From NCBI RefSeq assembly GCF_003585925.1, contig NZ_NRJH01000023.1, positions 1-64,000 of the forward strand: DNA of 64,000 nt. Direction: 5' to 3'. Below the pieces are notes generated by a model. It saw nothing but the letters and a program-made list of their open reading frames with translations. It had not been told where the DNA came from and did not search any database. Source of the stretch: Psittacicella melopsittaci. GTDB taxonomy: Bacteria > Pseudomonadota > Gammaproteobacteria > Enterobacterales > Psittacicellaceae. Positions 29,411-47,979 of this stretch are shown here, piece after piece. Positions within the stretch are counted from its first letter, which is position 1. Each line of letters opens with the position of its first letter. The position numbers and the translations under genes are program-made.

Positions 29411-29446
29411 GATTCCAAATAGTTTCCATTGATTGAGGCTTACACC

Positions 29447-30067
29447 GTGAATTTTTTTAAATCAACGCATAAAAAATCCCCAGAGGACAAACAAACCTCT
29501 CAGACAAATTTTCTCAGCCAAAAGGAAATTGACGACGCTTCAAAAGCAAATGGAACCGCAGTTACTGATTTAGTTGAAAACTTAGATAAAGTAAAATTTG
29601 AACAACCAAAAGAGCAACTAAAGCAATTACAACAAGAATCTAAAGCAAGACGAAAAAAGTATATTGAACAACGCTATGGTAAATTAAATTGGGACTCAGA
29701 GTTCACGCTCTTAAAGATTTTATATAAAGATTTTAGTACCAGATTATTTTTTACCATAGTACTTTGCCTCATTATCTTATCTCTTGCCTTAGCAAAAATT
29801 TACATTAGTAGAGTTTCGATTGAAACTACAGTAAAATACTCGCAGTTGCTTGCAGATAAAAACTCTTTGGTACTTTCAAATGACAATCTGCAGTTAGAGT
29901 TTCTTTCTTTAACCTCACGAACTAATATTATTAGAATTACGCAAGGGAAAATCTCATTAATTCCAATTCCAACTGAAGCTGAGGTTATTGTCGTAATTCC
30001 ATATTTACCACAAAATAAGACACTACCTACACCTAGTATTCCTCTTTTAACTCCTCCACAAGAGTAG
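29447..30067 (+). CDS. ftsL: Cell-division protein FtsL with a long cytoplasmic N terminus
   Basis: Small bitopic scaffold of the FtsQLB complex. I recognise it by position between rsmH and ftsI and by architecture: one membrane helix (TIVLCLIILSLALAKIYIS, about residues 103-121) followed by a coiled-coil-like periplasmic segment (YSQLLADKNSLVLSNDNLQLEFLSLTS in part). The C-terminal tail is Pro/Thr-rich. The GTG at 29447 follows TTGAGG at good spacing; an in-frame TTG at 29429 lies upstream. The cytoplasmic part of about 100 charged residues is much longer than in E. coli FtsL (121 residues in total). Confidence 0.75.
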   Translation: MNFFKSTHKKSPEDKQTSQTNFLSQKEIDDASKANGTAVTDLVENLDKVKFEQPKEQLKQLQQESKARRKKYIEQRYGKLNWDSEFTLLKILYKDFSTRLFFTIVLCLIILSLALAKIYISRVSIETTVKYSQLLADKNSLVLSNDNLQLEFLSLTSRTNIIRITQGKISLIPIPTEAEVIVVIPYLPQNKTLPTPSIPLLTPPQE

Positions 30068-31905: not shown

Positions 31906-33735
31906 ATGGTGCAATTAAGTACTGAACAATTAATTAAACAACTTCTTGGTTTAATTAACGAATTAAAACCATTAATTGTAAAACATCAACTTACTAATAT
32001 TAGTATTAACAGCAAAGAGTGTGACTCGCATACGGTTTTTGCCGCAACCAAGGGCTTTAACCTTGATGCCAGAGCCTTTATTGCTGATGCTGTAGGGCGT
32101 GGTAGTAAAGTTATTATTACCCATAATGAAAATCTAATTGGCATTCACGCTTATGTTCATCGTACTGATATAGTTAATGGGCAAGAAATTGATATTTTTG
32201 AAGTATATGACTTAAATAAATATCTGAGCTTTTTAACTCTAAAATTCTATGACTTTTTAGCTTCGGTGAGCTCTAAAGATAAAGTAGGTTTAGATGTACC
32301 TGTAATTGGGGTTACAGGCACTAATGGTAAAACTTTAACAACTAATTTAATTGCCCAAGGTTTGGCAGCTTTAACTCCTAAGGCTCCACCTTTTATTATC
32401 GGAACTATCGGCTTAGGGCAATATGGTCATTTAGCTAAAGCAAAAAATTCGACCCCTGACCCTTGCACGGTTTTAGATAATATTTTCCAAGCTGATTTTC
32501 TTGGTTCTAGTGCGGTAGTTATGGAAGTAACTTCTCATGGTCTAGCCTTAAATCGTGTCCGTAATGTTCGCTTTAAGCAAGCGATTTTTACTAATCTAAC
32601 TCAAGATCACTTAGATTATCACAAGACCATGGAAGATTATTTCCAAGCTAAGGCTCGCTTTTTCACCAAACACAATGTTAACGACTATATAGTTACTTGT
32701 AATGGAGAAGAAAATGACTACGGCGGTCGCATAGTTAAATTAATTTCCTTAAAATTTGCTAAAAGCCAAGGCGATAACGCAAGTACGCGTGGAGTTTCGG
32801 CATCTACGCCAGCTTTACTTTCTTTTTTAGGGGCTATACCTCCTGATGAACACGTGGCTGGAGCGAGAAATACTTTACCTAATCCTCTAGGAGAAAATGA
32901 GTTTCTTGAACTCCAACCTGAAGATTATGATCTGGTAAGTCAGGTTCTCAATGCCCAAGTAAAACCACGTCTTGCCGTAATTAATATTGGTAAACGTATT
33001 AACGAAATTGCTTGCTTTAAAGCTGATATAGTAGTAAACCTTTTAGATGTTGTTGCCCATACTAAAGGCTTGAGCATTACTTTTAGTTTTGAAGATAAAA
33101 TTAAAGAGTTAAAAACGCAAACTACTTTAGAAGTACCATTAATTGGTCTTTTTAACGCTTACAATGTTCTTACAACTATAACTTCTTTATATCTCTACGG
33201 TATAGAGTTAGAGAAAATTTTTGCTTATGCCCAAAACTTTAAATCGGTAAAAGGTCGCATGGAAGTTATGCCAAATCAAGAAAACAAAACCGTTATTGTT
33301 GATTTTGCTCACACTCCAGATGCCCTAAGCAAAGCTCTCGAAAGTGCCAAAGTACATTTTAAAGATCAACCACAAAGCAAAATTACGCTAGTTTTTGGTT
33401 GTGGTGGTGATCGTGATCCAGGTAAACGTCCTCTTATGGGAGAAATTGCTAGCACTTTAGCAGACAAGGTAATTATTACCGATGATAACCCACGTTCAGA
33501 AGATCCAGAAAAAATTGCCCAACAAATTCTAGCTGGAGTAAAAAGCAACCAAGAAAATGTTAGCTATATTGGTGATCGTGCCCAAGCAATTATTAGTGCT
33601 ATTGCTCAAGCTCAACCTGGAGACTGTATTTTAGTTGCAGGTAAAGGACATGAAACCGAACAAATAATCGGTGACCAAGTTCATCATTTTTCTGATCAAG
33701 AAGTAATAGAAGAATATTTTAATCGAGGAAAATAA
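31906..33735 (+). CDS. murE: UDP-MurNAc-tripeptide synthetase MurE (meso-DAP adding), with insertion
   Basis: Adds meso-diaminopimelate to UDP-MurNAc-L-Ala-D-Glu. ATP motif GVTGTNGKTLTTNL (about 134), then VMEVTSHGLALNRV, NLTQDHLDYHKTMEDYF, VDFAHTPDALSKAL and GCGGDRDPGKRPLM; the substrate signature DNPR (in TDDNPRSEDP, near residue 527) predicts meso-DAP as in Gram-negatives. At 609 residues it is 114 longer than E. coli MurE; about 75 extra residues lie between KARFF (end of the central helix) and SITFSF, a Ser/Thr/Pro/Asn-rich stretch in the central domain. The stop overlaps the murF ATG. Confidence 0.95.
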   Translation: MVQLSTEQLIKQLLGLINELKPLIVKHQLTNISINSKECDSHTVFAATKGFNLDARAFIADAVGRGSKVIITHNENLIGIHAYVHRTDIVNGQEIDIFEVYDLNKYLSFLTLKFYDFLASVSSKDKVGLDVPVIGVTGTNGKTLTTNLIAQGLAALTPKAPPFIIGTIGLGQYGHLAKAKNSTPDPCTVLDNIFQADFLGSSAVVMEVTSHGLALNRVRNVRFKQAIFTNLTQDHLDYHKTMEDYFQAKARFFTKHNVNDYIVTCNGEENDYGGRIVKLISLKFAKSQGDNASTRGVSASTPALLSFLGAIPPDEHVAGARNTLPNPLGENEFLELQPEDYDLVSQVLNAQVKPRLAVINIGKRINEIACFKADIVVNLLDVVAHTKGLSITFSFEDKIKELKTQTTLEVPLIGLFNAYNVLTTITSLYLYGIELEKIFAYAQNFKSVKGRMEVMPNQENKTVIVDFAHTPDALSKALESAKVHFKDQPQSKITLVFGCGGDRDPGKRPLMGEIASTLADKVIITDDNPRSEDPEKIAQQILAGVKSNQENVSYIGDRAQAIISAIAQAQPGDCILVAGKGHETEQIIGDQVHHFSDQEVIEEYFNRGK

Positions 33736-35807
33736 TGTCTCACTACACAAGCTTACAAGCGATTATTACAGGCTTAGAAAAGGCAAATCTTCTTGATAAA
33801 AGATTTATCCCTTTCCAACCTGAAAGTCTTGTAACCTATGCTTCTGAAGAACAAATTATTAGTCTTGTTGATAAAACCCAAGAAGAATTTAAACAACAAG
33901 ATAAATATCAAGAAGAACTTGCTCTGCGTGAAAGCCAGCACTATAAAAACCATGCTGGGATTACGGCAAGAAGTACAGTAGTTCTTGAAACCGAAAAATA
34001 CCTTGAAGAAGTTAAAAAAGGTAAACCTTTTATTCCAAATCACGAAATTCCTATCACCTACATAGGTAAATTTGCTGGAGAAGAGAAAAACTTTGATCAA
34101 CCTAAAGAGGTTGAAGTAAGCCCTTTAGATCAAGTAAAAGGCAATTACAAGGATACAAGTAAATACTATAGTGCCTCAGAGGTATTATGTGATCTCTTTG
34201 CCTTTAAAGGCTTACCTTTTGCTTCTCAACCCGTATTTTTAACCACAGATACGCGTCGCCTCAATAATGACTTAAAAGTATCGGCATTCTTTGCTCTAAA
34301 AAGTAATAACTTTACGGGACAAGAATTAGCTAGCATGGCGTTAAAAAACCGTAATACGGTTGTTTTTCTCGGCAATCTTAGTGAAGAAGACAAGGATTTT
34401 TGTTTAAAAAATAACCTAGGAAATATTATTCCTGTGCTTGATATAAATCAGGCTCTAAACTTTGTTGCTCGTCAAGTAAGATTTGACTATGCCCCTTTAT
34501 CTATTGCTATTACTGGTTCATCAGGTAAAACCTCGTTAAAAGAAATAGTTTCGCATGTATTTCGTAACTATTACCCACACCGCGTAGTAAGTACTACAGG
34601 AAATTTTAATAATGAACTAGGAGTACCTATTACCCTATTAGACATAGTTAATAGTCATATTAAGCATAGAATAAAACCTGAAGTGGCAGTTGTTGAACAT
34701 GGGGCAAATCACATAGGGGAAATTGCTCGCACCACTGCTCTTTCGTGCCCAGATATAGCCATAATTAATAATGTGCAACCTGCGCATACCGAGGGCTTTG
34801 GCGGCATTAAGGGTGTAGCTCTAGCGAAAAATGAAATTTTTGCCAATCTAAATGTTAACGGGGTAAAAATTATTAATCTTGATTCTTATACCAATGATTT
34901 AATGTTTGCCCGCAATGGACATCAAACCCTTTTAACTTTTAGTGCTAAAAATCCAGTGGCTGATTTTTATCTCGATGAAAATACTTTAGAGTTTCAAGAC
35001 GAGCAAATAACCTTTGACCTCTATATTAATGCTTTTGAGGTTAAACGTTTACATATACCTCAAAATCAGCATAATTTAACCAAAGAGATTTTTGTGGATC
35101 CGCAACAAGTAAAAGTTCGCACTAACCTAAAGGGAAAAATTGGAGCATACAATGCTACAGCAGCTATAGCTGTATGCTTAGCTGGAGGCGTTCCACTCGA
35201 TCATATTCTCTATAGTTTACAAAATGTGCCAACCCCAGCGCGTCGCACAAAAATTATAAAAACTCCTGCAGCTTGTTATATTGACGATAGCTATAATGCT
35301 AACCCTAGCTCAGTATTAGCTTCAATGGAAATTCTTGCTTTACAAAAGCAAGAGCATAAATACTTTATGCTCGGCTTTATGGCAGAACTCGATTATCAAA
35401 CCAAGGTTGACTTTTTTACTGAAGTCTACCAAAAGTACATTGCGGGTGAAAAGCAACCTTTTACCTTAATTGCTAACTTTAGCTATGTAACAGTAAAACC
35501 TAAAGTTGCTGCAAATAAGACAATTTATACCTTACCTATAAGTAAAGACGGTAAACCTCTTTATGTTGTTGAAGAGCATAATATAACTACGCCTGTAGCT
35601 GAGTCGAGTTATTACCGCCTTGCTTGTAAAGTATTTCAACTCATAAAAGATAATTCTGTAACTAACTTTGCTATAGCTTTTAAAGGCAGTAATTCTTCAA
35701 AAATGAATCTTTGCTTTAAAGAGTTTGTGCAAATGCTAAAAAATGATCCTACTCATTTTGCTCCAGAGGCTTATCTTTCTCAAGAGTTATTAGAATATTT
35801 AAAATAA
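33735..35807 (+). CDS. murF: D-Ala-D-Ala-adding ligase MurF with a ~140-residue N-terminal extension
   Basis: Adds D-Ala-D-Ala to the UDP-MurNAc tripeptide. The family part begins near residue 141 (YYSASEVLCDLF, then TTDTRRLNNDLKVSAFFALK); the P-loop ITGSSGKTSLKE lies near 257 against about 107 in E. coli. Further motifs are TTGNFNNELGVPITLL, VVEHGANHIGEIA, NVQPAHTEGFGG and IDDSYNANPSSVLASM. The first 140 residues are charged, Lys/Glu/Gln-rich, partly coiled-coil-like, and match nothing I know. The start is well supported because the ATG overlaps the murE stop (TAATG). 690 residues, E. coli 452. Confidence 0.93.
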   Translation: MSHYTSLQAIITGLEKANLLDKRFIPFQPESLVTYASEEQIISLVDKTQEEFKQQDKYQEELALRESQHYKNHAGITARSTVVLETEKYLEEVKKGKPFIPNHEIPITYIGKFAGEEKNFDQPKEVEVSPLDQVKGNYKDTSKYYSASEVLCDLFAFKGLPFASQPVFLTTDTRRLNNDLKVSAFFALKSNNFTGQELASMALKNRNTVVFLGNLSEEDKDFCLKNNLGNIIPVLDINQALNFVARQVRFDYAPLSIAITGSSGKTSLKEIVSHVFRNYYPHRVVSTTGNFNNELGVPITLLDIVNSHIKHRIKPEVAVVEHGANHIGEIARTTALSCPDIAIINNVQPAHTEGFGGIKGVALAKNEIFANLNVNGVKIINLDSYTNDLMFARNGHQTLLTFSAKNPVADFYLDENTLEFQDEQITFDLYINAFEVKRLHIPQNQHNLTKEIFVDPQQVKVRTNLKGKIGAYNATAAIAVCLAGGVPLDHILYSLQNVPTPARRTKIIKTPAACYIDDSYNANPSSVLASMEILALQKQEHKYFMLGFMAELDYQTKVDFFTEVYQKYIAGEKQPFTLIANFSYVTVKPKVAANKTIYTLPISKDGKPLYVVEEHNITTPVAESSYYRLACKVFQLIKDNSVTNFAIAFKGSNSSKMNLCFKEFVQMLKNDPTHFAPEAYLSQELLEYLK

Positions 35808-36878: not shown

Positions 36879-36904
36879 AAGCCTCGTGAAAACGAGGCTT
36901 TTAT
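36879..36904 (+). terminator. Terminator inside the dcw cluster (mraY / murD-ftsW)
   Basis: AAGCCTCG, a TGAAAA loop and CGAGGCTT are followed by TTAT. The T tract is short, so it may leak. A TATAAT at 36909-36914 just beyond could restart transcription. Confidence 0.7.
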
Positions 36905-36980
36905 CCTATATAATAGAAAGGACTTTTGCAAAAAAAATAAAAGTCAAAAATTTAGTCTTTTGTTCAACAAAGTATCTTTT

Positions 36981-39743
36981 ATGTCTTTATCCATTCCAAA
37001 TATAATAAATATTGGGATTGTGGGCGTGAAAAAAAGTGGCTTTGAAACAGCTCGCTTTCTTTTAACACATCAAGAACACAATCACTATAAAATTACTCTC
37101 TTTGATGATAAGCCAGATCAAGAGTTCATTTCTACCTTACAATCAATTAACGGTGATATCGAAGTATATCCTTTAAATGTACCAGATATCCTTGCCAAAC
37201 AAAATTTTCTTATTGTAACGCCTGGAATTCCAAAATCTCATCCTGCTTTTGCTAAAGCAAGAGAACAAAAAGTGGAAATTATTGGCGATATTGAACTTTT
37301 TGCTCGCTTAAAAAATGATTCTAAAGATCCTATTTTCCGCGATGCTCCCGTAATTGGGATAACTGGTTCAAATGGTAAAACTACGGTTACCGAATTAACT
37401 ACGCATATTCTGCAATATCTTGGTTACCATGTAGCTAAAGCAGGAAATGTGGGAGTACCAGTAATGTCTACTCTTACCGAAAGTTATAACTATTATGTGT
37501 TAGAACTTTCAAGTTACCAACTTGAGACTACCAATAGTTTAAAACTACGCGTAGGAACTATTCTAAATGTTACGCCTGATCATTTAGATAGATATAATGG
37601 CATGGAAGATTATACGGCAGCCAAACAGCATATTTACGATTTAAGCCAGAGCTTACTTTATAACAAAATAGATCAAGCAACTTGGCCTCGCAATGAAAAT
37701 GCTAAAAAGCACATGACTGCTTTTACTTCAGATCCAGTAAAACAGCCTGCTTCTTACTTCTATGATCCGCAAAAACGGACATTAAATATTCCGACCTTAT
37801 ACGATAATGCAACTAGTGTTTCCTATGTAAGTTTACCTGTTAAAGATTTTCTTCTCCAAGGGACGCATAACTATGAAAACCTTCTGGCAGCCATAGCTTT
37901 AGTGCGTTTAACTTTACAGGCTCACTCTGAACAACAAGACAAGTTAATTTTTGAAGCAGCTCGTAATTTTAAAGGCTTGCCACATAGATTTGAGCTTGTC
38001 CATGTTTCAAATAACGGCGTGCGCTTTATTAATGATAGTAAAGCAACCAATATAGGTTCGGTTGAATCAGCCTTACGTTCGGTAGATTTACATAGTAATA
38101 ATAAGCTTTATCTCCTAATGGGGGGCGAAGGGAAAAAGCAAGACTTTACCGAATTAGCTCCTGCAGTAGCGAAAATAAAAAATATTGAAGTTATTTGCTA
38201 TGGTCGTGATGCCGAAGAAGTAGCTAAATGCTCTCCGCATGCCCAAGTTTTTAAAGGGGCTACTTTAGAAACGGTAATGACTCATATAGCTCCTAAATTA
38301 AAAAGCAATGATGTAGTTCTCTTAAGTCCTGGTTGTGCTAGTTTAGATCAATTTAAAAACTATGAAGAGAGAGGGCAGAAGTTTACTGAAATTGCAAAAA
38401 AGTATCAGAAGCCTAGTAGAGTAAAGCGTTGGGGAATATCTCTGTTAAACTTTGCCCAAAACGCTACCCATGGTCTTATCTATCTAGGTGATAATAAAAA
38501 TAATGACCACACTATCAAGCTATATGACGGTTATTTACTTGCTTTAATCTTTAGCATTTTTGGTTTGGGGATAATTACTGTATTTTCTTCCTCAGTTTAC
38601 TTTTCTCTTAAGCAAATGGGGATGATTTTTAATCCTAAACAAGCTCTGTTAATGGTTGCCGGAGTAATAACCTTTTTAGTGAGTTTATGCATTAACTCGT
38701 CCAAATGGCGAACCTTTACTCCTTTGATTTCAATACTTACCATTGGAGCCTTGATTTTTGTTCATACATTTGGGCACTCGGTTAATGGAGCTCAGCGTTG
38801 GATTAGTTTATTTGGTTTTACTTTCCAACCTGTAGAATTAGCAAAACTTTGTACCCTAATTTATTTAGCTCACTACCTTGTGGCTGTATCTAGCGAAAGT
38901 AACTTTCGCTTAATAGATATGCTAGGTTTTACAGGATTTTTCCTGATAATGGCAATGCTTTTACTCATGCAACCTGATTTTGGTTCAACTTTAATGTTAA
39001 TCATAATTAGTAGTGTAACCATTGTCTATGTTACCCCGAACCTAAAAGCAATGGTAATAAGATTTACGCCTGTATTAATTGTTGCCGCTACGCTCTTATT
39101 TATCTACGTAACCAATAAATCTTACCTTATGGATCGTATTACAGGTTTCTTAGATCCATATTCTGATCCTTATGGTAAATCCTATCAGGTTATTAACTCT
39201 ATTTCTGCCTTTTCCCATGGCGGATTTTGGGGCGTAGGTTTAGGGAATTCAATTTTTAAATCTGGCTATCTTACCGAAGCTAATACTGACTATATTTTAG
39301 CTATTTACGGAGAAGAGTTTGGTTATATAGGTATTATTATCCTCGTAGTTTTAGAAATTTTACTCTATTTACGCATGTTTAAGATTTCTCACCAAACCTT
39401 TTTCATCTATAAGCGTCCTTTCCAAGCAATTTTAGTCTTTACTTTTGTTTTATGGTTTGCTTATCAAGCCCTCTATAACTTAGGTATGACCGTAGCCTTT
39501 TTACCAACTGATGGTAGTACCCATCCCTTAATTTCTTATGGGGGGTCATCCTATGTGGTAATGTTTACGGCATTAGGTATTACCATGCGTATTGACTACG
39601 AAAATCGCTTAATTGCTAATGGCGAAAAACTAAAAGAAAGTCGTTCTAAAGATATGGTCTTAAGTTTCTTTGATTACTTAAATAATTTCTTTTCACGCAA
39701 GAAAAGCTTGCCACAACACAAGCGGGCAAGAAAAAATAAATAG
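36981..39743 (+). CDS. murD-ftsW: MurD-FtsW fusion protein: D-Glu ligase joined to the septal glycosyltransferase
   Basis: One uninterrupted frame of about 920 residues. Residues 5-470 are a complete MurD, which adds D-glutamate to UDP-MurNAc-L-Ala: GDIELFARL, ITGSNGKTTVTELTT, VLELSSYQLETT, NVTPDHLDRY, GLPHRFELV, INDSKATNIGS, LMGGEGKKQDF and LLSPGCASLDQFKNYEERG. A basic linker of about 45 residues follows. From about 518 comes a complete FtsW, the SEDS polymerase of septal peptidoglycan: NGAQRWISLFGFTFQPVEL, QPDFGSTLMLI, the catalytic-Asp segment LTEANTDYILAIYGEE, and HPLISYGGSSYVVM. FtsW normally starts in the cytoplasm, so the topology is consistent. The C-terminal tail is cationic. The ATG at 36981 is preferred to a TTG at 36960. 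Confidence 0.95.
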   Translation: MSLSIPNIINIGIVGVKKSGFETARFLLTHQEHNHYKITLFDDKPDQEFISTLQSINGDIEVYPLNVPDILAKQNFLIVTPGIPKSHPAFAKAREQKVEIIGDIELFARLKNDSKDPIFRDAPVIGITGSNGKTTVTELTTHILQYLGYHVAKAGNVGVPVMSTLTESYNYYVLELSSYQLETTNSLKLRVGTILNVTPDHLDRYNGMEDYTAAKQHIYDLSQSLLYNKIDQATWPRNENAKKHMTAFTSDPVKQPASYFYDPQKRTLNIPTLYDNATSVSYVSLPVKDFLLQGTHNYENLLAAIALVRLTLQAHSEQQDKLIFEAARNFKGLPHRFELVHVSNNGVRFINDSKATNIGSVESALRSVDLHSNNKLYLLMGGEGKKQDFTELAPAVAKIKNIEVICYGRDAEEVAKCSPHAQVFKGATLETVMTHIAPKLKSNDVVLLSPGCASLDQFKNYEERGQKFTEIAKKYQKPSRVKRWGISLLNFAQNATHGLIYLGDNKNNDHTIKLYDGYLLALIFSIFGLGIITVFSSSVYFSLKQMGMIFNPKQALLMVAGVITFLVSLCINSSKWRTFTPLISILTIGALIFVHTFGHSVNGAQRWISLFGFTFQPVELAKLCTLIYLAHYLVAVSSESNFRLIDMLGFTGFFLIMAMLLLMQPDFGSTLMLIIISSVTIVYVTPNLKAMVIRFTPVLIVAATLLFIYVTNKSYLMDRITGFLDPYSDPYGKSYQVINSISAFSHGGFWGVGLGNSIFKSGYLTEANTDYILAIYGEEFGYIGIIILVVLEILLYLRMFKISHQTFFIYKRPFQAILVFTFVLWFAYQALYNLGMTVAFLPTDGSTHPLISYGGSSYVVMFTALGITMRIDYENRLIANGEKLKESRSKDMVLSFFDYLNNFFSRKKSLPQHKRARKNK

Positions 39744-39748
39744 CTTAT

Positions 39749-39783
39749 AAGATCTACGTTATTTTGCGTAGATCTTTTTTTAT
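39749..39783 (+). terminator. Terminator inside the dcw cluster (murD-ftsW / murG)
   Basis: AGATCTACG / CGTAGATCT with an 8-base loop, followed by seven T. Confidence 0.85.
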
Positions 39784-39870
39784 TTTTACTAAGAAACTAC
39801 AGCACTTTAAGGGTCTTTGGTATATACTATTAGATTGTTTCCTTTCATATCCAATTTGCACTCTATTTAT

Positions 39871-41094
39871 ATGACAAAGAAAAAAGTGTTAATCATGGCT
39901 GGAGGCACAGGAGGACACATTTTCCCTGCTCTAGCAATAGCACAAAAACTAACAGAACAAGGGGTAGAAGTTGCATGGGTTGGTACTGCTAACCGCATGG
40001 AAGCTCAACTTGTACCCAAATATGGCTATCCTATCTACTTTATTGATATCGAAGGCTTAGTTTCACGTGGAGCTAAAGCTTGGTTAAGAGCTCCATTTAA
40101 AATCTTAAAATCAATTTTCCAAGCCAAAAAAATTATTAAAAGCTTTAAACCTGACCTCGTAGTAGGAACAGGGGGTTACGTATGTGGACCTACTGGAGTT
40201 GCAGCCAAACTATCTGGCGTACCTCTAGTTATGATTGAAAATAACGGGGTTATGGGACTAACTAATAAAATCTTAGCTAAGTTTGCCAACCTAATGTTAT
40301 TTGCTTACCCTTTAAAAGAAGCAAAAAAAGCCGAATATGTGGTAGGTCAACCTCTGCGTGAAGACTTTACTAAACTCGAGAGTCAAACAAATCTCGAGTC
40401 TTTAGAGCAAAAAGCCAAGGTCGAATTTAAAGACCTTCTAGTGTTTAGTAAGGCAAAAGAGCAAGACCTTGAATATAGTCCAGAAAACTATGAAAAAGTT
40501 TACCAAAACCTAAGTGCCGAGCAACAAGCTGAATTTAATCTCTTAAGTTTTAGTAAACGCGAATTAAAAATTCTTGCCGTAGGTGGCTCTCTTGGGGCAC
40601 AAATTCTCAATCGCAATCTAGCTCCAGCAATAAAAGAGTTAGAAGTTCTTGGCATTAAAACTAAAACTTATCAACAAGTTGGTAAGGGCAACTTTAATGA
40701 AGTTGAGCAACTAGTGCAAGAACTAGGGCTACAAAGTTCATTTGTGGTGCAAGAATTTATCGATAATATGGTGGAAAAATACTTGGATAGTGACCTGATT
40801 ATTTGTCGTTCAGGGTCTATGACCGTATTTGAAATTGCTAGCTGTAATCGTCCCGCAATCTTTGTTCCTCTTGCCCTGCAAAAGGATCAGCAACAATTGC
40901 AAAATGCTAAGTACTTAACTAATGCCGGCGCTGCCCTTTATATTCTCAATCAAGATTTTAATGCTCAGAGTTTAGTTAAACAAATTTGCCGTTTAAACTA
41001 CCACCAACTCTATCAAATGGCAAGTAAACAAAGTGCATTAGCAACACCAAAAGCCACAGATAAAATTATCGAATTTATTAATTCATACTTATAG
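39871..41094 (+). CDS. murG: Lipid II-forming GlcNAc transferase MurG
   Basis: Peripheral membrane glycosyltransferase that adds GlcNAc to lipid I. From the ATG at 39871 it begins KKKVLIMAGGTGGHIFPALA, the first glycine-rich loop; GTGGYVCGPTGVAAKLSGVP, IENNGVMGLTNK, VGQPLRED, AVGGSLGAQILN and CRSGSMTVFEIASCNRPAIFVPLA follow. About 407 residues against 355 in E. coli; most of the excess is a charged insertion of about 45 residues between the two Rossmann domains (after VGQPLREDF), unusual because it lies in the hinge. No FtsW gene precedes it separately. Confidence 0.94.
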   Translation: MTKKKVLIMAGGTGGHIFPALAIAQKLTEQGVEVAWVGTANRMEAQLVPKYGYPIYFIDIEGLVSRGAKAWLRAPFKILKSIFQAKKIIKSFKPDLVVGTGGYVCGPTGVAAKLSGVPLVMIENNGVMGLTNKILAKFANLMLFAYPLKEAKKAEYVVGQPLREDFTKLESQTNLESLEQKAKVEFKDLLVFSKAKEQDLEYSPENYEKVYQNLSAEQQAEFNLLSFSKRELKILAVGGSLGAQILNRNLAPAIKELEVLGIKTKTYQQVGKGNFNEVEQLVQELGLQSSFVVQEFIDNMVEKYLDSDLIICRSGSMTVFEIASCNRPAIFVPLALQKDQQQLQNAKYLTNAGAALYILNQDFNAQSLVKQICRLNYHQLYQMASKQSALATPKATDKIIEFINSYL

Positions 41095-44870: not shown

Positions 44871-46211
44871 GTGGCAAACAGTAAATCAAAGAACTTAATT
44901 CTGTCAATCCATATTGACTCCCAAGAAATTAATTTAGCTGCAGGTTATGTTGACAATGAAACTGTAAATCTCCTTGCTTTAAAAAGAGGTGACCTTCAAG
45001 GGATTAACTTCGGGAATATTACCAATAAAGATCTATTTACGAGCTCGGTAGTCGCAAATCTTCAAGATTTTTTAGACAATCACTTACGCATTTATAGTAA
45101 TGAAACGGCTAAAAGCTTAAACCTTGAAGTTGCCAATGGGAAATTGGTAGTTAAAAAAATCTCTTACAACATCATTGTTTCTGAGTTAAGAAAACAAGCA
45201 ACTATACAGACACACATTTTAAAACAGATATTACAAGAACACTTTTTTGCTGAAGATGTTGTTTTAAGTGATGAGAAAATTTTCAAATGTACAGCAGATA
45301 CAGCTACAACAACACTTTTAGTTGAAGACAGCCCAGAAGACAAACCTTATTTAATTAATCTAAATTTATGCTATAACTCAGCATGGATTAATTTTATTAC
45401 CGATCAAAATGACTATACCGTTTCTTCCCTAAGTGTAGAAAAAGGATTTAAAGAAATAGTCAATGGGGTAAATAATAGTCCTAGGGTTAGATCTCCTCTT
45501 CCTTTAGAAACTATCTATAATGGCCTGCGAGGTTATAGATTTTTAGCAACTCGCTCAAAAGTTGACTTAAGATTTCCTCTCTTTAATATCAATTTTAGTT
45601 TGAGTGAAATTGAACAGGCAATTATCTTACCCTTACAAGAAGTTTTTCATCTTTGCTATGACAAATTTAGAGAACTAGATCGCAACAACTTAAGATTTAC
45701 AGATAATTTCTTAAGTAAAGTTAAGATTAACTTTATGGGGTATGGGGCAGATCTTTATGACATTTCCTCAGTAGTCTCTTTAATATTTTCTGAGAGACTT
45801 ACCGATGAATTAGAAAGTCTAAAACGCCAAGATGCCAAATTAAATACTACTTCAACAAGCGATGAAACTTCGCTTAACCTAGTTACAGGAATGCTAAATC
45901 ATTCTACGAGTTATTTACCTTCAATGAATGTAAAAACTAAGCAATTGATTTATTCTTCTAGTGATGATCAACTAAAATTTGCTCATACTACCTTACGTAT
46001 AGGTAATAAAGCGAAGATGATCGATGGAGTATGTTTTAGTTTTAGTAACCAAATGGTCGATACAAGTGGCAGAGTTAGTTACAAACAATATCTGCAATAC
46101 CTCGACCAATTCACAACATCCTTAGGATTAATTTACAACTTCCATTTAGCTCAACCTAAACCGATAAAACTTGGATTTTTTGTATCCTTATTGAAGTTTT
46201 TCAAAATGTAG
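44871..46211 (+). CDS. ftsA: Degenerate FtsA-like protein
   Basis: FtsA is the actin-like membrane anchor of FtsZ. This protein of 446 residues (E. coli 420) occupies the ftsA place between ftsQ and ftsZ and ends in an amphipathic helix (LGFFVSLLKFFKM), the expected membrane-targeting tail. The actin-fold ATP motifs are badly altered: phosphate loop 1 is ILSIHIDSQEINLA where E. coli has GLEIGTAKVAAL, phosphate loop 2 near 161 is INLNLCYNSAWINFI where E. coli has VVDIGGGTMDIAV, and the adenosine motif near 287 is NFMGYGADLYDI where E. coli has VLTGGAAQIEGL. ATP binding is therefore doubtful. The start is GTG. The family call rests on position, length and the tail, with faint similarity elsewhere. 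Confidence 0.7.
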   Translation: MANSKSKNLILSIHIDSQEINLAAGYVDNETVNLLALKRGDLQGINFGNITNKDLFTSSVVANLQDFLDNHLRIYSNETAKSLNLEVANGKLVVKKISYNIIVSELRKQATIQTHILKQILQEHFFAEDVVLSDEKIFKCTADTATTTLLVEDSPEDKPYLINLNLCYNSAWINFITDQNDYTVSSLSVEKGFKEIVNGVNNSPRVRSPLPLETIYNGLRGYRFLATRSKVDLRFPLFNINFSLSEIEQAIILPLQEVFHLCYDKFRELDRNNLRFTDNFLSKVKINFMGYGADLYDISSVVSLIFSERLTDELESLKRQDAKLNTTSTSDETSLNLVTGMLNHSTSYLPSMNVKTKQLIYSSSDDQLKFAHTTLRIGNKAKMIDGVCFSFSNQMVDTSGRVSYKQYLQYLDQFTTSLGLIYNFHLAQPKPIKLGFFVSLLKFFKM

Positions 46212-46338: not shown

Positions 46339-47979
46339 ATGACAATTCAAACAACTATGGAAAATGAAATTGTACTTCCAGTTTTGAATTCAAACGGCGG
46401 TAAAACAGAAATGAAAGAAAGAGATCAATTAGAAAAGATCATTGTTATTGGCGTAGGTGGTGCAGGTAACAATGCTGTTGATTATCTATATAAGCAACCT
46501 GGGTATATGGATAATGTAGGTAAAAGTGTTATTCACTACATTTTCAATACCGATGAAAACTGCTTAAATAATCTCCAATGTGAAAATAAATTAGTTTTAG
46601 GTAAAAATACTTTAAAAGGTAAAGGAGCTGGAGCTAATATTAACGTTGGTCGTAATGCTACAGTAGAATCTATTAAAGAAATTACCGAAATTGTTACTGG
46701 TGCTGATTTAGTTTTCATTACTGCTGGTATGGGTGGTGGTACAGGTACTTTAGGCTCATCTATTGTTGCTGAAGCAGCAAAAAGCGTAGGGGCTATAGTA
46801 GTATCTTTAGTTACATTACCATTTAGATATGAAAACCGTAAGCGCAACGCTTTCTACGGCATTAAAAACCTTTATAAGTACTCAGATTCATTAATCATGA
46901 TCGATAACCAAAAAATTGTCGATTTCTACCCTGATTATGAATTTACCCAAGGTTTAGATGAAGCTAATAAAATTCTTTCTAATGCCATTTCTGGGGTTAT
47001 CAAAATTATTCGTAACCCTACTACGATTAATACCGACTTTGAAGATTTAAAAACTATTCTAAATAACGGTGGTAAATCACAAATTCTTTACCGTAGTCTT
47101 GCGGGTCAAGAATTAGAAAAAATTAATGAAGATCCAGATGCTACAATCGATTATATTTATAATGAAGTAACAACATCGCCATTAATTACGCGTTCGAATA
47201 TTGAGCAAGCAACAGCATTCTTAATTCTTTTAGAGTGTTCAAGTCACTTTACGCAAAGAATTATGAACCAATTTGTTTCTAAATTCTCACGCGTTAACCA
47301 AAATGACGATGATGATATTCTCGATGAGCTTCTTGATGATTTAGATAATTTAGACGAAGAGAAAATTGAGTCTATTAAAAACAATGGTCCTCAGGTTATT
47401 TTTGCTTATGATAAATTACCTGATACCGAAGACAATGCTCCACGTCTAAATATTACTATTGTGGCTACAGGTATGGGTACTCACGATAGCAATAGAGAAA
47501 ACGAACAAACTATTGTTCCAATTCAAGAATCTATTTCACACACTTTACCAACTCATAAAGTTACCCCGACGCCAACGGTAAATAATAAAGTTGCAGATAA
47601 TCTTTCAATTCAACCTGATAGATCTGCAAAAATTTTAGATAACCGTGCAGCTCAGGCACCAGCACCTAAAGCAACGCCTGCACCTGCAGCCCCTGCGGCC
47701 GCAGTAGCTACAGCGGCTACGGCAACAGCTGCGGTAAATCAAGGTGATTTATTTGCTCAACTAAGTAATTTAGATGACGCTATTAAACAACAAATCCTTG
47801 AAGCTTTACAAGCAGCAGGACAAGGACAAGCTTCAACTGCAGATAACGCAGCTGAATACCGTTCTCCTGTTTTACCTGAGGCAAATAATCCTTTTGTGAA
47901 TCCAAAAGCTGAAGAAAAAGAAGCACCTAAAGAAAAAGAGCTTTCTTTCTTAGCTGATGATCTTGCAATTGATGAATAA
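46339..47979 (+). CDS. ftsZ: Tubulin-like division GTPase FtsZ, enlarged
   Basis: Forms the division ring. The GTP-binding part is intact: IVIGVGGAGNNAVDYL, the tubulin signature GMGGGTGTLGSS (about 128-139) and the catalytic T7 loop NTDFEDLKTIL (about 230). 546 residues against 383 in E. coli, with a 20-residue N-terminal extension, an acidic insertion of about 30 residues near 320-348 (NDDDDILDELLDDLDNLDEE) before the last strand of the C-terminal subdomain, and an Ala/Pro-rich linker. The C terminus (ELSFLADDLAIDE) does not match the conserved peptide (DYLDIPAFLRKQAD in E. coli) that binds FtsA and ZipA. Start after AAGG; 127 bp after ftsA. Confidence 0.93.
   Translation: MTIQTTMENEIVLPVLNSNGGKTEMKERDQLEKIIVIGVGGAGNNAVDYLYKQPGYMDNVGKSVIHYIFNTDENCLNNLQCENKLVLGKNTLKGKGAGANINVGRNATVESIKEITEIVTGADLVFITAGMGGGTGTLGSSIVAEAAKSVGAIVVSLVTLPFRYENRKRNAFYGIKNLYKYSDSLIMIDNQKIVDFYPDYEFTQGLDEANKILSNAISGVIKIIRNPTTINTDFEDLKTILNNGGKSQILYRSLAGQELEKINEDPDATIDYIYNEVTTSPLITRSNIEQATAFLILLECSSHFTQRIMNQFVSKFSRVNQNDDDDILDELLDDLDNLDEEKIESIKNNGPQVIFAYDKLPDTEDNAPRLNITIVATGMGTHDSNRENEQTIVPIQESISHTLPTHKVTPTPTVNNKVADNLSIQPDRSAKILDNRAAQAPAPKATPAPAAPAAAVATAATATAAVNQGDLFAQLSNLDDAIKQQILEALQAAGQGQASTADNAAEYRSPVLPEANNPFVNPKAEEKEAPKEKELSFLADDLAIDE

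Follow-up and report, generated by a model that had tools for sequence, protein, structure and literature searches.

A single gene for MurD and FtsW in the dcw cluster of Psittacicella

In Psittacicella, a genus of bird-associated bacteria, the peptidoglycan enzymes MurD and FtsW are encoded as one protein. The gene lies in the dcw cluster of the window (the whole 64,000-nucleotide stretch of DNA that was analysed) and forms a single frame of 920 codons which is intact in four Psittacicella species, as the first-pass annotation had proposed for this genome. The frame begins with an ATG at 36981, an in-frame TTG at 36960 being a second possible start, and contains no internal stops before the stop codon that ends at 39743; given the base composition here, 920 open codons would arise by chance with a probability of about 4e-30. 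With both enzymes in one frame, no separate copies and occurrence in more than one genome, the protein qualifies as a fused dcw enzyme. It is probably an uncut, bifunctional and membrane-anchored MurD-FtsW that arose once through loss of a stop (and a start), and this is the best explanation overall. The features of the locus are as follows.

36879-36900, no strand assigned: hairpin between mraY and the fusion gene, likely an intrinsic terminator, its position conserved in three species
36886-36914, forward strand: weakly supported promoter-like site GTGAAA-17-TATAAT, located 66 bases upstream of the ATG
36981-39743, forward strand: murD-ftsW fusion gene of 920 codons and a stop
37008-38399, forward strand: MurD ligase part, residues 10-473 (TIGR01087, residue mapping, Foldseek)
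38400-38531, forward strand: junction of about 40 residues between the MurD and FtsW parts, free of in-frame ATG, GTG and TTG codons
38532-39602, forward strand: FtsW-type SEDS glycosyltransferase part, residues 518-874 (TIGR02614, PF01098, Foldseek)
39126-39515, forward strand: deviant FtsW residues 716, 762, 768 and 844 (L, G, N and D), in all four species
39288-39290, forward strand: catalytic aspartate D770 of the FtsW part, in the segment TEANTDY
39603-39740, forward strand: C-terminal cytoplasmic tail, poorly conserved
39749-39776, forward strand: strong intrinsic-terminator-like hairpin of 11 pairs and a T run, directly 3' of the fusion gene

The two halves of the protein

Both domains carry their own motifs, as first annotated: the catalytic residues of MurD are kept and the catalytic aspartate of the SEDS family is present. 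The MurD half matches the NCBIfam murD profile TIGR01087 with 367.8 bits (cut-off 211.95) over residues 10-473, which correspond to positions 1-440 of the 441 in the profile. It contains the P-loop GSNGKTT with K133, the catalytic H201, H335-R336 and D352-K354, while K215 is equivalent to the carbamylated lysine in MurD. Residues identical to E. coli MurD (1UAG numbering) include K115, N138, E157, H183, K198, N268, N271, H301, R302, D317, K319 and S415, and the only differences among the positions checked are T in place of S116 and Y in place of F422. The modelled half aligns with E. coli MurD (5a5f) with a TM score of 0.87 of the target in Foldseek. Profile and catalytic residues place it among the UDP-MurNAc-L-Ala:D-Glu ligases, and it is presumably active.

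The FtsW half scores 282 bits against the Pfam family FTSW_RODA_SPOVE (PF01098, residues 519-876) and 293.4 bits against the NCBIfam ftsW profile TIGR02614, which is below the cut-off of 337.5, a value also missed by seven of the ten control genomes that have a match. The same profile gives the RodA of this genome a lower score of 226.9 bits. The modelled half aligns with FtsW of the Pseudomonas aeruginosa core divisome (8bh1) with a TM score of 0.89 of the target in Foldseek. Its position likewise identifies it as the FtsW orthologue, located in the interval between murD and murG of the dcw cluster, with rodA elsewhere adjoining a PBP2-type gene. D770 corresponds to D297 in E. coli, the E. 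coli FtsW numbering being carried over by motif spacing, and R606, W607, Q616, P665, G668, Y715, R719, G845 and Y853-G855 are also kept. Three residues shared by all of the 19 other FtsW rows in the alignment are changed in the fusion, where E. coli R243, H295 and K370 are replaced by L716, N768 and D844. The position of E. coli E289, a site which is variable in other FtsW proteins, is occupied by G762 in all four Psittacicella species.

Essential loop residues of FtsW have been mapped in E. coli, in a set from which K370 is absent; in that study R243L is dominant-negative and H295A is tolerated (PMC8765783). The E289G variant of E. coli FtsW is locked in an active state and no longer needs FtsN (PMC8078798). 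The site changes in the fusion suggest altered regulation. Activity of the FtsW half is not certain, given its score below the ftsW cut-off and the replacement of R243 by leucine and K370 by aspartate. The RodA of the window's genome also lacks equivalents of R243 and K370, and the changes in the FtsW half therefore need not imply inactivity. One could also envisage that the FtsW half is a mere membrane anchor for MurD and that septal synthesis is left to RodA or class A PBPs. Loss of the two invariant residues, one of them by the very exchange that is dominant-negative in E. coli (PMC8765783), would fit such a role, but D770 and most of the essential loop residues are retained, the half is as conserved as MurD, the RodA that shares the two losses is a typical one, and the cluster contains ftsI, ftsQ and ftsL, all of which makes a mere anchor very improbable.

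Conservation within the genus and origin of the junction

The fusion is uninterrupted in all four Psittacicella genomes, the window's own included, with 75-80% identity over 920 residues; P. gerlachiana and P. hinzii are two of the other three carriers. Mean identity within the genus is 79% for the MurD half and 79% for the FtsW half, compared to 57% for the junction (range 51-63%) and 45% for the C-terminal tail (32-60%). Each half has a dN of about 0.13-0.20 against a dS above 1.3, a value which is at least partly saturated within the genus, and the junction, with a dN of 0.28-0.44, is the second most variable part after the C-terminal tail. The order mraY, murD-ftsW, murG, murC, ddl is preserved in the three other species. 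All of the assemblies are drafts, and a sequencing or assembly error could in principle have deleted a stop or a frame change between two genes. However, the open junction is common to four separate assemblies of different species, in which it differs in sequence and, by whole codons, in length, so that such an error is effectively refuted as the source of the fusion.

Searches with the fusion protein and with TIGR01087 found no separate murD in any of the four genomes; the fusion is the sole match over the cut-off, and the other matches to this profile, all below it, are MurC, MurE and MurF. Equivalent searches with the fusion protein and TIGR02614 found no separate ftsW in the four genomes and one further SEDS gene in each, which in the window's genome sits after a PBP2-type gene and scores as RodA (379 bits against a cut-off of 336.7). 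The absence of separate copies, which the first-pass annotation had asked to be checked, is hence borne out by both profile and protein searches. The Psittacicella genomes are 86-92% complete (91% for the window's genome), and it would be unsurprising for a single gene to be missed in one of them; that both murD and ftsW were missed in all four through incompleteness is unlikely.

In several relatives (L008, L037, L038 and L049-L052) murD and ftsW are located in the same frame, one stop or a few codons apart, as in LAKLLG*GMEFLDK (L050) and LAQEHG*MRLFHVR (L052), where the asterisk marks the stop. This arrangement supports the earlier proposal that the fusion originated when the stop separating two adjacent dcw genes was lost. 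The junction was expected near 38380-38530 and is placed at 38400-38531. It had been described as a 45-residue basic linker; a junction indeed exists, but it consists mostly of FtsW's own cytoplasmic N-terminal tail, residues 476-515 aligning with that tail in relatives just before the conserved LYD that opens TM1. Judged from these alignments, the fusion is likely to have arisen when two genes lying in one frame lost the stop (and start) that kept them apart, with little or no linker added. In one relative (L039:1001-2599) MurD has a C-terminal extension of about 85 residues, rich in Ala, Pro and Lys, just before ftsW.

A different possibility is that the product is cut after translation, or that FtsW is also started internally. 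MurD and FtsW would then act separately, and the loss of the stop would have been a neutral accident. In favour of this, the junction is variable and includes a hinge at residues 501-510 that is modelled at low confidence, one species has ATG and GTG codons within the junction, and relatives encode the two proteins separately in adjacent frames. On the other hand, ATG, GTG and TTG are all absent between the end of MurD and TM1 in three of the four species, where a separate FtsW made by internal initiation is not expected, and a stop has been regained in none of the four although one would readily arise at this base composition. Translation of a separate FtsW from the junction is thus unlikely, and two separately acting proteins are on the whole an unlikely outcome that nevertheless retains some weight.

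A survey with the fusion protein covered 296 genomes from the order, 398 from the phylum, with some overlap between the two sets, and 61 Bacteroidota. Among the matches listed, no further MurD-FtsW fusion was found in about 290 other genomes from the order, some 400 from the phylum and the 61 Bacteroidota, and every listed match outside Psittacicella that covers both domains is interrupted by one or more stops. Only matches above a score are listed; a strongly diverged fusion, or a fusion carrying a long insert, may therefore have escaped. The wider search for two-domain proteins envisaged at the outset restricts the fusion to Psittacicella among the genomes sampled and the matches listed. Apparent long frames of 861, 827, 943 and 1026 amino acids (G290, G242, G262 and G644, respectively) in fact consist of separate genes whose stops had been read through, and joined matches in G023, G149, G236, G256 and others all have a stop between the genes.

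Transcription signals and neighbouring genes

The hairpins on both sides of the gene indicate that the murD-ftsW fusion is probably a separate transcription unit inside the dcw cluster. Comparable hairpin pairs surround the fusion in P. gerlachiana and the fourth species, while in P. hinzii the upstream hairpin is present and the downstream one is weak. Promoter-like matches of the kind found upstream of the ATG are no commoner than in shuffled sequence.

Several other dcw proteins in the window are enlarged. MurF (33735-35807) has 690 amino acids with about 165 residues ahead of the recognisable MurF, MurE (31906-33735) has 609, MurG (39817-41094) has about 410-425, and FtsL (29429-30067) has 212 with a long N-terminus. 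FtsZ (46339-47979, 546 amino acids) matches Pfam in its GTPase domain only and has a long C-terminal region. The position of ftsA, between ftsQ and ftsZ, is occupied by an ORF (44871-46211, forward strand) without a match in Pfam, NCBIfam or PDB sequences. This ORF is conserved in three Psittacicella genomes (also L062 and L063) at 62-68%, and the contig of the fourth apparently ends earlier. A short helix of amphipathic appearance lies at its C-terminal end, its AlphaFold model has a pLDDT of 33, too low to be informative, and the protein may be an FtsA that has diverged extremely or one that has taken the place of FtsA. Neither an FtsA over the cut-off nor a ZipA C-domain was found in any of the four Psittacicella genomes; the matches obtained for FtsA resemble MreB and DnaK.

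Known fusions and the proposed role of tethering

Published fusions of peptidoglycan enzymes include MurE-MurF, MurB-MurC, MurG-MurC, MurC-Ddl and MraY-MurG (PMC6420597; also PMC4803751), and an ftsW/murG fusion is found in the actinomycete Kribbella flavida (PMC4929429, Figure 3 legend). Like MurE-MurF of Bordetella pertussis and others (PMC6420597, PMC4929429), MurD-FtsW combines dcw neighbours in one bifunctional peptidoglycan protein, replaces the separate genes and has a short linker. However, MurE-MurF consists of two soluble ligases which catalyse consecutive steps, whereas MurD-FtsW joins a soluble ligase to a multi-pass membrane polymerase across non-consecutive ones. The fusions MurG/MurC, MurC/Ddl, MurB/MurC and MraY/MurG are likewise lineage-restricted and some span non-consecutive steps, but none includes MurD or a SEDS protein. 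In Kribbella flavida, too, a SEDS polymerase is joined to a cytoplasmic-side peptidoglycan enzyme and both are derived from dcw neighbours; there the partner is the glycosyltransferase MurG in the order ftsW/murG, while in Psittacicella it is the ligase MurD, located N-terminal to FtsW. Other members of the order have the same domains in the order mraY-murD-ftsW-murG, often in one frame, but with a stop and a start between murD and ftsW. No report of MurD-FtsW or of any other Mur ligase-SEDS fusion was found in the open-access literature searched, and Psittacicella apparently provides the first case. The novelty first claimed for it thus apparently stands for a Mur ligase joined to a SEDS protein, and is limited by the Kribbella flavida precedent (PMC4929429) for a SEDS protein joined to a cytoplasmic enzyme.

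The AlphaFold model of the fusion has a mean pLDDT of 82.7 and a pTM of 0.56, with MurD modelled well and FtsW fairly. The predicted join consists of a helix (480-500) followed by the flexible hinge, and the low pTM favours two tethered domains over a fixed interface. The N-terminus of FtsW is cytoplasmic in known structures, and MurD would therefore be suspended from the membrane on its cytoplasmic side. It is proposed that a single fusion event preceded the divergence of the known Psittacicella species and that the fusion is now the sole source of both activities, as one membrane-anchored bifunctional protein whose MurD part is held on the cytoplasmic face by the N-terminal tail of FtsW. The MurD part would add D-Glu to UDP-MurNAc-L-Ala, and the FtsW part together with FtsI would polymerise septal glycan on the periplasmic side. 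Likely effects are a fixed 1:1 dosage and placement of MurD at the membrane near MraY, MurG and the division machinery.

The first-pass annotation also suggested that precursors could be channelled from MurD to FtsW. Five steps, those of MurE, MurF, MraY, MurG and a flippase, lie between the two and make channelling implausible; substrate would not be handed directly from one active site to the other. Tethering and fixed dosage are likelier, and the role of the fusion may lie in closeness to membrane steps, in fixed dosage or in neither, if it is neutral. Tethering of MurD to the septal polymerase is plausible. All four Mur ligases of M. tuberculosis, MurD included, interact with FtsW in a two-hybrid-type protein-fragment assay (PMC3605390), which lends credence to functional proximity.

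We infer that the protein is not cleaved, that MurD and FtsW are both active within it and that its location is important. Several points count against this. Side-wall growth also requires MurD and would be hindered by a purely septal one, the weakly conserved linker does not suggest a precise interface, and the hinge could be cut by a protease. A more far-reaching reading, which is tentative and rather doubtful, is that the division polymerase has its own ligase which seeds UDP-MurNAc-dipeptide and, via MurE/F, MraY and MurG, lipid II at FtsWI, all within a remodelled divisome. The remodelling is suggested by the four altered sites in FtsW, one of them the E289G position, and by the lack of a recognisable FtsA or ZipA.

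Whether the soluble Mur ligases work at the membrane beside the polymerases is an old question, which has been debated on the basis of weak interactions and of gene fusions. With its only MurD covalently joined to its only FtsW, Psittacicella represents a natural test of tying precursor synthesis to the division site, and also of how side-wall growth is fed when MurD is bound to FtsW.
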